DNA of 64,000 bases, taken from contig NZ_KI632511.1 of the NCBI RefSeq assembly GCF_000504285.1, positions 4,275,372-4,339,371 on the forward strand, given 5' to 3'. This stretch comes from Actinospica robiniae DSM 44927. GTDB lineage: Bacteria > Actinomycetota > Actinomycetes > Streptomycetales > Catenulisporaceae. Below the pieces are notes generated by a model that made no database searches, was not told the origin of the DNA, and worked only from the letters and a program-made list of their open reading frames with translations. A program made the position numbers and the translations under genes. Positions within the stretch are counted from its first letter, which is position 1; every line of letters begins with the position of its first letter. This document shows, piece by piece, positions 55,889 through 57,745 of this stretch.

Positions 55889-56551
55889 ATGACGAGGGTG
55901 GGCGGGCGCAGGCAGCACAAGTTGTTCGCAAGCTGGTATCCGGGACGGGCGGAGGCGATGGACCGTGCTGGATTCGCGGACTACCGGCGCCGGCTGCTGG
56001 CCGGGCTCTCCGGCCGGGTGCTGGAACTGGGCGCCGGAAGCGGCCTTAATTTCGCGCATTACCCGGCCGAAGTGGAGCGGGTGGTGGCTGTCGAGCCGGA
56101 GCCGGCCTTGCGCGAGCGCGCGGTGCGGGCGGCCGAGGCGGCGGACGCTCCGATCGAAGTGGTCGACGGCGTCGCCGAGGATCTGTCGGTACATGCCGGG
56201 CAATTCGACGCGGCCGTCTGTTCGCTCGTGCTGTGCTCGGTGCCGGACCAGCGGACCGCGCTGGAGCAGCTGGCGACCGTGCTGCGGCCGGGTGGCGAGA
56301 TCCGGCTGCTCGAGCACGTCGGCGCGTCGGGCGGAATGCTCGCGGGCGTGCAACGCGTGCTCGACGCGACGGTCTGGCCGTGGATCGGCGCGGGCTGCCA
56401 CTGCTCGCGTGACGTCACGTCGGCCGTGGCGCTGGCCGGGCTGAAACTGACCGCGATCGAGACGTTCCGCTTCCCGGCCGGCGGACCCACCCTGCCGACG
56501 GCGCCGCACGTCCTGCTCACCGCCGCCCCCGCGCCGCATCTCGCGAGGTAG
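55889..56551 (+). CDS. Class I SAM-dependent methyltransferase
   Basis: 220 aa. Motif I VLELGAGSGLNF, motif II acidic VVAVEPEP, and motif IV DAAVCSLVLCSVPD with VLRPGGEIRLLEHV. The closest group is the UbiE/METTL7-like small methyltransferases. ATG 55889 is chosen since the longer frame upstream lacks family sequence. It converges with the tRNA array on the other strand. Confidence 0.87.
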   Translation: MTRVGGRRQHKLFASWYPGRAEAMDRAGFADYRRRLLAGLSGRVLELGAGSGLNFAHYPAEVERVVAVEPEPALRERAVRAAEAADAPIEVVDGVAEDLSVHAGQFDAAVCSLVLCSVPDQRTALEQLATVLRPGGEIRLLEHVGASGGMLAGVQRVLDATVWPWIGAGCHCSRDVTSAVALAGLKLTAIETFRFPAGGPTLPTAPHVLLTAAPAPHLAR

Positions 56552-56569
56552 CGCGGGCGGTCACGCGAG

Positions 56570-56646
56570 AGGCCCGAAGCGGAGTCGAACCGCATGCCAG
56601 ACGTTTTGCAGACGTCCTCCCGACCGTCGGGATGAGGCTCCGGGCC
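56570..56646 (-). tRNA. Atypical tRNA-Cys (GCA) with 8/4 acceptor branch
   Basis: 77 nt without encoded CCA. The anticodon arm GACGU-CUGCAAA-ACGUC gives GCA with U33 and A37. The discriminator is U73, the Cys identity base. The T loop UUCGACU is normal, but the T stem is only GCGG/CCGC. Base 8 is A instead of U and pairs to extend the acceptor to 8 bp (GGCCCGGA/UUCGGGCC), leaving U49 bulged. The D arm is long and unusual, with CCCGA/UCGGG able to pair. Minor Cys and Sec tRNAs with bulged 8/4 branches have been reported in bacteria. Confidence 0.8.
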
Positions 56647-56684
56647 ATCGCGCCGGCGGATCGTGCCCGTCGGCGGGTCCTGCG

Positions 56685-56758
56685 TGCGCTCGGAGGGATT
56701 CGAACCCTCAGCCACCGGCTCCTCAAGCCGGCCCGTCTACCCGTTGCGGCACGAGCGC
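56685..56758 (-). tRNA. tRNA with Leu anticodon GAG but short variable loop
   Basis: 74 nt. Acceptor GCGCUCG/CGAGCGC, U8, A14, anticodon arm CCGGC-UUGAGGA-GCCGG (GAG, reads CUC/CUU), five-base variable loop UGGCU, T arm GAGGG-UUCGAAU-CCCUC, discriminator A73. Bacterial tRNA-Leu is class II with a long variable arm; this one is class I, so its amino acid is uncertain. The three-bp D stem resembles Gln/Gly-type tRNAs. No CCA encoded. Confidence 0.82.
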
Positions 56759-56791
56759 GTGTCCGTGTGCTGCCGTACTGCCTTCTCGGCG

Positions 56792-56864
56792 TGCCCTCGG
56801 TGAGATTCGAACTCACACCGGCGGCGTCCTGAACGCCGTGCCTCTGCCGTTGGGCTACGAGGGC
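56792..56864 (-). tRNA. tRNA with Leu anticodon CAG but short variable loop
   Basis: 73 nt. Acceptor GCCCUCG/CGAGGGC, UA at 8-9, anticodon arm CGGCG-UUCAGGA-CGCCG (CAG, reads CUG), variable loop CCGGU, T arm GUGAG-UUCGAAU-CUCAC, discriminator A73. It is class I like its neighbour, unlike normal bacterial tRNA-Leu. First tRNA of the array; its 5' end is only 11 bases after the T-run of a terminator. Confidence 0.85.
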
Positions 56865-56875
56865 CGGGAAAAGCG

Positions 56876-56911
56876 AAAAACCGCCCGATCCGGGATCTTC
56901 CCGGCGGGCGG
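56876..56911 (-). terminator. Intrinsic terminator between the small ORF and the tRNA array
   Basis: On the minus strand CCGCCCG pairs with CGGGCGG and, inside, CCGGGA with TCCCGG, then TTTTT follows (56880-56876). A classical U-tract terminator is rare in this G+C-rich genome. It starts 25 bases after the stop of the Cys/Leu-rich ORF and leaves no room for a separate tRNA promoter behind it. Confidence 0.88.
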
Positions 56912-56936
56912 CTCCATGGCCGTCGGTGATAGACGG

Positions 56937-57014
56937 TCAGGGCGTGGCAGCCTCCGGGCATCCGAGCAGGCACAGACACCGAAGGCAGCACAGTCGCGTG
57001 AAGTCGCGGTACAT
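56937..57014 (-). CDS. Cys/Leu-rich 25-codon small ORF (leader-peptide-like)
   Basis: It begins MYRDFTR and has the core LCCLRCLCLLGC, ending PEAATP. It contains five Cys (UGC x4, UGU) and five Leu codons (CUG x3, CUU, CUC) within 12 residues; all are read by anticodons GCA, CAG and GAG, those of the three tRNAs downstream. The ribosome site GAGGAG is seven bases before the ATG. A hairpin CCGTC/GACGG begins immediately after the stop codon, then the terminator. No family recognised; it could be a regulatory leader or a product in its own right. Confidence 0.75.
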   Translation of the reverse strand: MYRDFTRLCCLRCLCLLGCPEAATP

Positions 57015-57055
57015 CTTCGGTCTCCTCTCGGGTGCGGGTCTGGCCGTCGGAAACC

Positions 57056-57085
57056 AGTGTGCTGCCGCGCGGGGTCGCCGGGCAA
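57056..57085 (-). promoter_or_regulatory. Promoter of the small ORF / tRNA unit
   Basis: On the minus strand TTGCCC (57085-57080) and CACACT (57061-57056) are 18 bases apart, between the upstream lipoprotein stop and the small ORF. It predicts a start near 57050 and a leader of about 36 bases. Confidence 0.5.
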
Positions 57086-57097
57086 CCGGTTTTCGGC

Positions 57098-57745
57098 TCA
57101 GGAGCAGTGCGGCGAGTCCGGCGTCACCGCGAGCGAGACCACATGCCAGCGGCGGTCGCCGCCGCGGCGCAGGCCGAGTTCCTCGTACGTCGGGTGGACG
57201 GTCTTCGGCTGGACCGCGGCGCCCACGACGTGGGTGCGCGAGTCGCCGCGGACCACGTCGGACCAGTCGGCGCAGAAGCTGACCTTGGCCCGGCCGGTGC
57301 CCGCGGGCGCGGTGTACTGCGTGTCGCTGAGCACGATCACGCCGACCGGCTGCTCCCGGCGCGCCACCCACGGCTTTATCTGCGCCGTCGCCTCGGCCAG
57401 GCCCACACCCTGCCAGTACTGGGTCAGCTCGGGGTCGTGGCCGTCGGAGGTGTATTCGGCCTGCACCATCGCCCGCATCGCCTGCTGCACGGTGAACAGG
57501 ACCTCGTGCTCGGCTCGGCTGGCGAGCATCGGGTGGTGGAAGGCCAGCCCGACGGTCACCGGGAGGGTGATCCGGGCGTCCTGGTGCACGGCGGCGGCGG
57601 TGGCCCCGACCGTCGCCGGCGGCGGGATCGGGGGCGGAGTGGCGGGCGAGCTGGCGCAGCCCGCGGCCGCGACCAGGGCGGACGCCGTGACGACGGCCGC
57701 GAGCAGCGGCCAGCTCGGGCGTCTCGTCGTCCTCGTCACTCGCAC
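57098..57745 (-). CDS. Putative lipoprotein of unknown function
   Basis: 215 aa from GTG 57745 (GTG 57739 also possible). Signal sequence with lipobox (WPLLAAVVTASALVAAAGCASS), then a Pro-rich spacer and a domain with two Cys (SFCADWS and the terminal SPHCS). TACCTT lies seven bases before the start, so the mRNA may be leaderless. No family recognised. Its 3' end is 83 bases from the small ORF. Confidence 0.72.
   Translation of the reverse strand: MRVTRTTRRPSWPLLAAVVTASALVAAAGCASSPATPPPIPPPATVGATAAAVHQDARITLPVTVGLAFHHPMLASRAEHEVLFTVQQAMRAMVQAEYTSDGHDPELTQYWQGVGLAEATAQIKPWVARREQPVGVIVLSDTQYTAPAGTGRAKVSFCADWSDVVRGDSRTHVVGAAVQPKTVHPTYEELGLRRGGDRRWHVVSLAVTPDSPHCS

Follow-up and report, generated by a model that had tools for sequence, protein, structure and literature searches.

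Why should a short open reading frame (ORF) rich in leucine and cysteine codons be followed by an intrinsic terminator and then by tRNA genes whose anticodons read those codons, and could such an arrangement control the supply of the tRNAs? The locus that raises this question lies on the minus strand of the window, by which we mean the whole stretch of 64,000 nucleotides of Actinospica robiniae DSM 44927 that was analyzed. The initial annotation had placed there, in this order, promoter-like boxes, a ribosome site, a small ORF, a U-tract terminator and three tRNAs. Re-reading of the strand, together with ARAGORN and Rfam, bore this order out, with a hairpin between the stop codon and the terminator:

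57056-57085, minus strand: promoter-like site, TTGCCC (57085-57080), 18 nt, CACACT (57061-57056), found by pattern
57022-57027, minus strand: ribosome-binding site GAGGAG of the leader ORF, read from the sequence
57014-56937, minus strand: leader ORF, 25 codons, MYRDFTRLCCLRCLCLLGCPEAATP, a length shared by all 12 aligned copies and a 13th
56951-56959, minus strand: proposed antiterminator, 5' strand, codons 19-22, GCCCGGAGG, from its pairing potential with the terminator 5' arm
56920-56936, minus strand: hairpin immediately 3' of the stop codon, CCGTC...GACGG, pairing kept over 12 copies
about 56869-56913, minus strand: intrinsic terminator, GC-rich hairpin and U tract, from pairing over 12 copies and the fold z
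56792-56864, minus strand: tRNA-Leu(CAG), short variable arm, A73, ARAGORN and Rfam RF00005 (54.6 bits)
56685-56758, minus strand: tRNA-Leu(GAG), ARAGORN and Rfam RF00005 (61 bits)
56570-56646, minus strand: tRNA-Cys(GCA), 56646-56571 and U73 at 56570, from a five-copy comparison; missed by ARAGORN

Upstream on the same strand is a lipoprotein-like ORF ending at 57098, and on the opposite strand a methyltransferase-like ORF ends at 56551; both were named by eye. A TTG-type hexamer is present in all 12 copies by construction, since it was chosen by pattern, and a NANACT hexamer follows it after 17-18 nt in nine of the 12. The 12 aligned copies all have a purine-rich stretch ahead of the leader start codon.

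Conservation and genomic setting of the cassette

A search of relatives, which had been proposed as a check on the locus, recovered the leader together with its tRNAs as a conserved unit. When the 481-nt cassette was compared by BLAST with 60 related genomes, 16 showed matches, of which 10 (A. robiniae included) hold real cassettes and six have short matches only, with no cassette. A covariance model of the leader, built from 12 copies, found 13 leaders in 11 of the 14 family genomes (Actinospica and Catenulispora) and none in G004 (another genus, 98% complete), G010 (77% complete) and G013 (81% complete). Alignments and folds comprise 12 copies; the 13th leader (L091/L133), which breaks off in the terminator at a contig end, was left out. 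In 394 genomes drawn from the larger class and searched with stricter filters, the model returned the A. robiniae copy and three weak matches (L080-L082) with no tRNA nearby.

An exact-pattern scan of 84,980 species yielded 60 stretches, and the model gives 131-175 bits to six of them, all from named Catenulisporaceae records (Actinospica durhamensis, A. acidithermotolerans, Catenulispora pinisilvae, C. pinistramenti, Catenulispora sp. Bin6.9 and C. rubra); the next-best scores are 22.3 bits (L099) and 17.7 bits (L123). Among the 54 other stretches, tRNAs accompany one only (L126: Glu, Thr, Met, Asp), and none of these is for Leu or Cys. The pattern is narrow, as two of the 12 copies (L047 and L048) do not fit it, and the scan recovered six of the 10 other leader-bearing genomes even though the missed leaders do fit; absence from the scan is therefore weak evidence. 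Outside the family, these non-exhaustive searches found no such leader beside tRNAs. On the strength of its conservation within the family, the leader-tRNA cassette is a real, conserved feature.

The cassette occupies several different chromosomal places among the family genomes. When flanks, some of them short, were compared by blastn, only five Catenulispora copies were alike upstream and two of these downstream, the exception being one 472-nt match between two Actinospica flanks. The dusB-lipoprotein locus of A. robiniae is present in A. durhamensis and A. acidithermotolerans with no tRNAs within 1.5 kb beside it, and the cassettes of both species sit on other contigs. Because the flanks differ in most copies and this locus is cassette-free in two congeners, the cassette is a unit. 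In A. durhamensis, the CAG and GAG tRNAs belong to one copy, and a second copy has the GCA tRNA as its sole tRNA, behind a leader with three Leu and two Cys codons.

A phage or plasmid origin was considered and rejected, no leader having been found in the phage and plasmid collections searched: 13 viral stretches reached at best 17.5 bits with no adjoining Leu or Cys tRNA, and two phage and three plasmid records gave single tRNA-length matches only. The cassette also differs from a mobile tRNA array, in which many clustered tRNAs lie on a phage, plasmid or integrative element. The arrays of mycobacteria, phages and plasmids, as excerpts of four papers describe them, have about 11-36 tRNAs and are partly located on phages or plasmids (PMC5966550, PMC6582537, PMC12803027, PMC10264068). 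Like these arrays, the cassette holds structurally divergent extra isoacceptors; unlike them, it is chromosomal and comprises one to three tRNAs behind a leader.

Leader codons and RNA structure

The window leader has five Leu codons (CTG three times, CTT and CTC) and five Cys codons (TGC four times and TGT). Given the codon frequencies in 38 presumed window genes (17,076 codons), the probability of at least five Cys in 24 codons is 4e-6, and the leader is the only one of the 88 short ATG ORFs of the window with at least five codons for each amino acid. All of these codons can be read by the cassette anticodons, as the initial annotation had stated, but the match is not exclusive, as housekeeping tRNAs read the same codons. 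Across the family, the leader has 25 codons in all 13 copies, and Leu is kept at position 11 (12 of 12 aligned copies), position 14 (11 of 12) and positions 8, 16 and 19 (10 of 12 each). The start and stop codons, R12 and P20 (12 of 12) and E21 (11 of 12) are kept as well, and the rest drifts. The variable sites are spread over the three codon positions (16, 20 and 16) with no third-position (synonymous) bias, which suggests that selection on the peptide itself is not strong; the peptide has no Pfam or NCBIfam match.

Pooled over the 12 copies, the 60 Leu codons of the leader, which are not independent draws as the copies are related, comprise CTG 25, CTC 17 and CTT 18 and no other codon. CTT thus makes up 30% of the leader Leu codons versus 2.1% in the 38 window genes, a 14-fold enrichment. 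It stands at codon 11 in four of the five Actinospica copies and at both codons 16 and 19 in five of the seven Catenulispora copies. The kept Leu positions, the CTT enrichment and a ribosome site in all copies read are, at the level of sequence, what a short attenuator leader with control codons would be expected to have.

The Cys codons offer a further comparison. A model of the GCA tRNA scores above 96 bits in four of the 14 genomes (A. robiniae, G001, G002 twice and G012), and all its other matches fall below 50 bits. All six leader copies from these four genomes have Cys at codon 13; in all seven copies from the seven other leader-bearing genomes, the codon is for Ser or Tyr. In a leuS and cysS tree, G012 is placed in a clade beside the other leader-bearing Catenulispora, and therefore one joint loss of the tRNA-Cys and of the Cys at codon 13 is the simplest account. 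The match between codon 13 and the tRNA-Cys thus probably reflects one evolutionary event and is suggestive rather than statistical proof. Cys codons elsewhere in the leader do not strictly track the tRNA: codon 9 is still Cys where the tRNA-Cys is missing.

Between the leader and the tRNAs lies an intrinsic terminator, the second element that an attenuator would have by its sequence. Its base stem of 7 bp, rich in GC and accompanied by a U-rich tract, is paired in 98.8% of cells over the 12 copies (fold z of -2.11 for 56869-56909), and the 4-pair helix of the stop-codon hairpin is paired in 97.9%. The gap that separates the terminator hairpin from the first tRNA base measures 15-54 nt in the 12 copies and lacks TAnnnT in all of them; it is at most 37 nt in 10 copies and 15-19 nt in four. 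Because the gap is short and lacks TAnnnT, read-through seems to be needed for the tRNAs, and the cassette tRNAs are, as far as sequence can indicate, probably reachable only by read-through of the terminator. A T-box riboswitch was rejected as the sensing element, with no Rfam match at the gathering score in the window, nor at E<=5 in 56450-57200.

The last codons of the ORF can pair with the 5' arm of the terminator, strongly in Catenulispora and weakly in the window copy. Covariation of this antiterminator, suggested earlier as a check, gave a mixed picture: the helix is conserved and the covariation score beats the shuffles, but the number of doubly changed pairs is less clear. The main helix is paired in 94.1% of cells and four core pairs are present in 12 of 12 copies, one column pair being UA in seven, CG in four and UG in one; the 5' arm of the terminator is common to both structures, so that its own conservation inflates the number of invariant pairs. 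In the covariation score, the whole structure surpassed all 500 shuffles and every slid version. The number of pairs with a double change was equaled by 24 of 500 shuffles, and the rows are related. The fold-energy z obtained by shuffling the upstream part is -3.8 to -5.2 in all seven Catenulispora copies, but weak or absent in Actinospica, with -1.0 in the window copy, +0.4 in L032, -1.7 in L047, -2.5 in L033 and +1.5 in L048.

Folds were also predicted for the nascent RNA that begins at codon 16 and ends immediately ahead of the 3' arm of the terminator. In all 12 copies, between 11 and 15 of the 16 leading nt of the 5' arm then pair with the last part of the ORF and so enclose the stop hairpin; with the 3' arm missing, some upstream pairing is forced. 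Once the transcript, again taken from codon 16, is complete, prediction gives the terminator in 11 of the 12 copies (all but L048), and in 10 of the 12 the antiterminator of the nascent RNA is less stable than the stop hairpin and terminator together. As finished transcripts favor the terminator, which argues against a thermodynamic switch, any switch would have to be kinetic. Kinetic switching is usual for classical attenuators.

Structure and identity of the cassette tRNAs

The tRNAs had all been described as structurally unusual. This holds for the tRNA-Cys, with its Sec-like 8/4 fold, and less so for the leucine tRNAs, as short-armed tRNA-Leu is widespread and the GAG tRNA of Catenulispora is long-armed. 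The tRNA-Leu(CAG) has a short variable loop, A73 and seven of seven acceptor pairs (G-U counted) in 11 of 11 copies, and its D arm matches that of the tRNA-Leu(UAG) of the same genome, the one seen, which is also short-armed. A BLAST search with this tRNA-Leu(UAG) matched 50 of 118 class genomes. The 30 loci listed are without exception short-armed tRNA-Leu, mostly with the anticodon UAG, UAA or CAA; by this sequence comparison, actinobacteria commonly possess tRNA-Leu of this kind. A mycobacterial array also includes a short-armed tRNA-Leu(TAG), as noted in an excerpt of PMC6582537. Among the nine copies of tRNA-Leu(GAG), the five from Catenulispora have a long variable arm and the four from Actinospica have none.

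The leucine identity set of E. coli, as given in an excerpt of PMC9976931, consists of A73, A14, A15-U48, G18G19 and A20a. The discriminator A73 is found in 11 of 11 CAG copies by script and in the GAG copies by eye, and A14, A15-U48, G18G19 and A20a look consistent in the Actinospica cassette tRNA-Leu when both bases and numbering are read by eye.

The GCA tRNA has four homologues and folds consistently across the five sequences, with an 8-bp acceptor stem, a 4-bp T stem, a 6-bp D stem, a 6-bp anticodon stem and a short variable loop. Its 24 pairs are paired in 100% of cells in the five copies, and six of them show double changes, including an A-U to G-C change at the eighth acceptor pair. 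U73 and the GCA anticodon are present in five of five copies. Judged by its sequence and compared fold, the third tRNA is a tRNA-Cys with a Sec-like 8/4 fold. A selenocysteine identity was rejected on the GCA anticodon (not UCA), the short variable loop and a score of 30.8 bits as tRNA-Sec (RF01852), below the gathering score of 47. A link to selenocysteine was likewise dismissed, as the genome has no tRNA-Sec over the cut-off: its best score, 46.7, falls on a locus that ARAGORN calls tRNA-Ser(UGA). G003 has a clear tRNA-Sec at 72 bits, and nine more genomes have matches just over the cut-off (47.1-49.0 bits).

The closest known counterpart is the selC* tRNA-Cys, which in the excerpt of PMC7609411 has U73, GCA, the 8/4 acceptor and T stem and Sec-like features in common with the cassette tRNA-Cys. 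The long variable arm and the T-stem A51a bulge of selC* are both absent from the cassette tRNA-Cys (PMC7609411), and membership in that group was rejected even though U73, GCA and the 8/4 fold occur in five of five copies. The actinobacterial, aerobic host, with no tRNA-Sec over the cut-off in the A. robiniae genome, also differs from selC*.

Probable attenuation, its alternatives and the supply of tRNAs

We consider it likely, from sequence and predicted structure, that in these soil actinobacteria the cassette works as a classical ribosome-mediated transcription attenuator, with supplementary tRNA-Leu and tRNA-Cys genes under its control. When Leu-tRNA (or Cys-tRNA) is sufficient, the ribosome would reach the stop codon and cover codons 19-25, the terminator would form and few cassette tRNAs would be made. 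Slow decoding at codons 8-15 would leave codons 19-25 free of the stalled ribosome, and these codons could then pair with the emerging 5' arm of the terminator, so that polymerase would pass before the terminator forms. Read-through would yield extra tRNA-Leu(CAG), tRNA-Leu(GAG) and tRNA-Cys(GCA) and thereby relieve the shortage sensed by the leader. The likely purpose, which is the weakest part of the proposal, would be a reserve supply to draw on if housekeeping isoacceptors were left uncharged or had been damaged or cut. We favor attenuation because it accounts at once for the order and spacing of the parts, the choice of codons and the structure. The model, put forward with the first reading of the locus, gains from the leader length, the hairpins, the tRNA gap, the codon bias and the joint absence of Cys codon and tRNA-Cys, and is weakened by the fold-energy z of the window copy and by the preference of finished transcripts for the terminator.

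That preference (11 of 12 copies) would also suit another arrangement, in which the tRNAs have their own promoter or are reached by constitutive read-through, and the ORF and terminator belong to a separate small-peptide or sRNA unit that lies upstream by chance. Terminators leak, and tRNA genes usually have strong promoters of their own; moreover, the gap leaves 54 nt in L039 and 49 nt in L049. The 15-19 nt of four copies, the at most 37 nt of 10 and the lack of TAnnnT in any of them argue against a promoter of this kind, and gaps so short also lower the probability of an independent sRNA or peptide unit. Chance neighborhood is difficult to reconcile with an ORF, terminator and tRNA that stay together in different places, including the A. 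durhamensis copy with the tRNA-Cys only, and we therefore regard this arrangement as unlikely. Less probable still is the private tRNA set of the initial annotation, which would have the small ORF as its target for translation or recoding; the odd tRNAs would then be charged with a special or non-standard amino acid, or take part in a tRNA-dependent pathway. The presence of three structurally odd tRNAs in one unit might point to it, but the discriminators are kept (A73 in all 11 CAG copies, and U73 with GCA in all five Cys copies), and the peptide is poorly conserved apart from Leu, R12, P20 and E21. Housekeeping isoacceptors exist for the same codons: a class II tRNA-Leu(CAG) in 14 of 14 family genomes, tRNA-Leu(GAG) in at least 11 and a canonical tRNA-Cys in A. 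robiniae itself. Each genome has one LeuRS over the cut-off, among the matches listed, and one CysRS plus a weaker paralogue, presumably MshC. The search for a dedicated synthetase yielded two extra class Ia genes (G000:C1:8734982 and 8574047), which were set aside as ValRS-like. Together, these findings speak against the private set.

A special case of attenuation, whose probability is not to be added to that of the general model, is that resistance to anticodon nucleases preserves the variants, the leader acting as a sensor of damage. U38 is absent from all 20 cassette tRNA-Leu (11 CAG and nine GAG) and present in all 25 housekeeping CAG and GAG tRNAs among those listed, and G37 is lost in five of 11 CAG and five of nine GAG cassette tRNAs. 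According to an excerpt of PMC6459853, VapC-mt11 cuts tRNA-Leu(CAG) after GG at 36-37, and phage tRNAs with such anticodon-loop changes are reported in an excerpt of PMC10264068. For VapC-mt11, the base after the cut (position 38) is described as immaterial in the same excerpt (PMC6459853), so that loss of U38 alone would explain nothing there. GG at 36-37 is kept in all four Actinospica copies of each Leu tRNA, and the loop of the Actinospica cassette tRNA-Cys, CTGCAAA, is that of the housekeeping tRNA. Nuclease escape is thus a possible purpose, uneven across the copies by their sequences, and as an explanation of the cassette we hold it to be rather doubtful.

Leader-peptide attenuation is known for genes of amino-acid biosynthesis, transport and aminoacyl-tRNA synthetases. 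In a search of open-licence papers by title and abstract start, which is weak evidence, we found no leader-peptide attenuator of tRNA genes. In Streptomyces, leader-peptide attenuators are described for leuS, trpS, alaS, thrS and trpE in excerpts of PMC1262725 and PMC8079986. These have in common with the cassette a short leader, control codons, Leu codons and an actinobacterial host, and several also have a U-tract terminator and a proposed antiterminator. Unlike them, the cassette has tRNA genes as its output instead of a synthetase or biosynthesis gene, and its 25-codon leader mixes Leu and Cys codons. Its 5' untranslated part would be about 32-45 nt, as reckoned from the promoter-like site, whereas the S. 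lividans leaders are described in the excerpts as leaderless. A short leuS leader like the S. lividans LeuL2 (PMC8079986, in excerpt) is present in A. robiniae (MQAVRLLLGRPR), G003 and G009, which makes Leu attenuation plausible in this lineage. For cysteine, the mycobacterial cys operons have leader peptides with Cys codons (excerpt of PMC1262725), and a VapC4/tRNA-Cys response is mentioned in an excerpt of PMC13273310; as in these, the small Cys-rich ORF of the cassette would be able to report on Cys-tRNA. In the excerpted account, however, the mycobacterial leaders precede sulfur genes and have no conserved terminator hairpins, whereas the output of the cassette is tRNA.

More tentatively, the cassette may be a thermostat of decoding capacity, a proposal drawn from sequence that we put forward as conceivable rather than probable. 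The leader, composed of codons that its product tRNAs read, would measure the progress of ribosomes at CUG, CUC, CUU, UGC and UGU and, when housekeeping isoacceptors fail (uncharged, cut or unmodified), would release divergent replacement tRNAs that escape the insult as an emergency supply. If attenuation does act on these tRNA genes, it would close the regulatory loop directly, as the ribosome would sense a shortage in decoding and the decoder itself would be the answer. Bacteria would then possess a codon-specific, on-demand control of tRNA supply, and the compact switch behind it could serve to report a shortage of tRNAs or damage to them. The cassette would also provide a natural test case for why extra, odd tRNAs persist in phages, plasmids and chromosomes.

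Irregular copies of the cassette

Two cassette copies (L039 and L049) carry a stretch resembling a tRNA 3' end (CCCGGAAGCA...) between the terminator and tRNA-Leu(CAG), immediately before the tRNA. This stretch could pair with the 5' strand of tRNA-Leu(CAG); it is perhaps the leftover of a lost tRNA, or else a precursor hairpin. In the thirteenth leader copy (L091/L133), located at a contig start of C. rubra, the leader ends within the terminator arm, which reflects either the end of the assembly or a disrupted copy. The tRNA-Leu(GAG) of Actinospica durhamensis (L033) has the anticodon loop CCGAGGA, in which C33 replaces U33; this copy may be decaying.

Related tRNA genes outside the cassette

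A short variable arm is also present in tRNA-Leu(UAG) of the A. robiniae genome (C1:5446519-5446592; L074:1020-1093), and short-armed tRNA-Leu genes with UAG, UAA and CAA anticodons were found repeatedly in actinobacteria. In another actinobacterium, a dense array of 20 tRNAs (L172; G164:C1 around 4298486) includes tRNA-Leu(CAG) and tRNA-Leu(GAG), both of them short-armed.

Distant from the cassette, A. robiniae possesses a divergent second tRNA-Cys(GCA) (C1:775331-775402; L075:932-1003), which scored 43.3 bits with the tRNA-Sec model. Among the family genomes, a clear tRNA-Sec (72 bits) was observed solely in G003 (G003:C1:6567244-6567335; L313), and nine further family genomes have hits barely above the cut-off of this model.

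The leuS leader and additional synthetase-like genes

A separate leader precedes leuS in the A. robiniae genome:

L310:363-401, minus strand, leuS leader MQAVRLLLGRPR, upstream of leuS

This leader resembles the LeuL2 leader of Streptomyces lividans, and similar leaders occur in two Catenulisporaceae genomes (G003 and G009). The A. robiniae genome additionally encodes two valyl-tRNA synthetase-like genes (L225:947-3484 and L226:530-3001), one of which exceeded the cut-off of the alt_ValS model; these extra genes possibly play a role in self-resistance.
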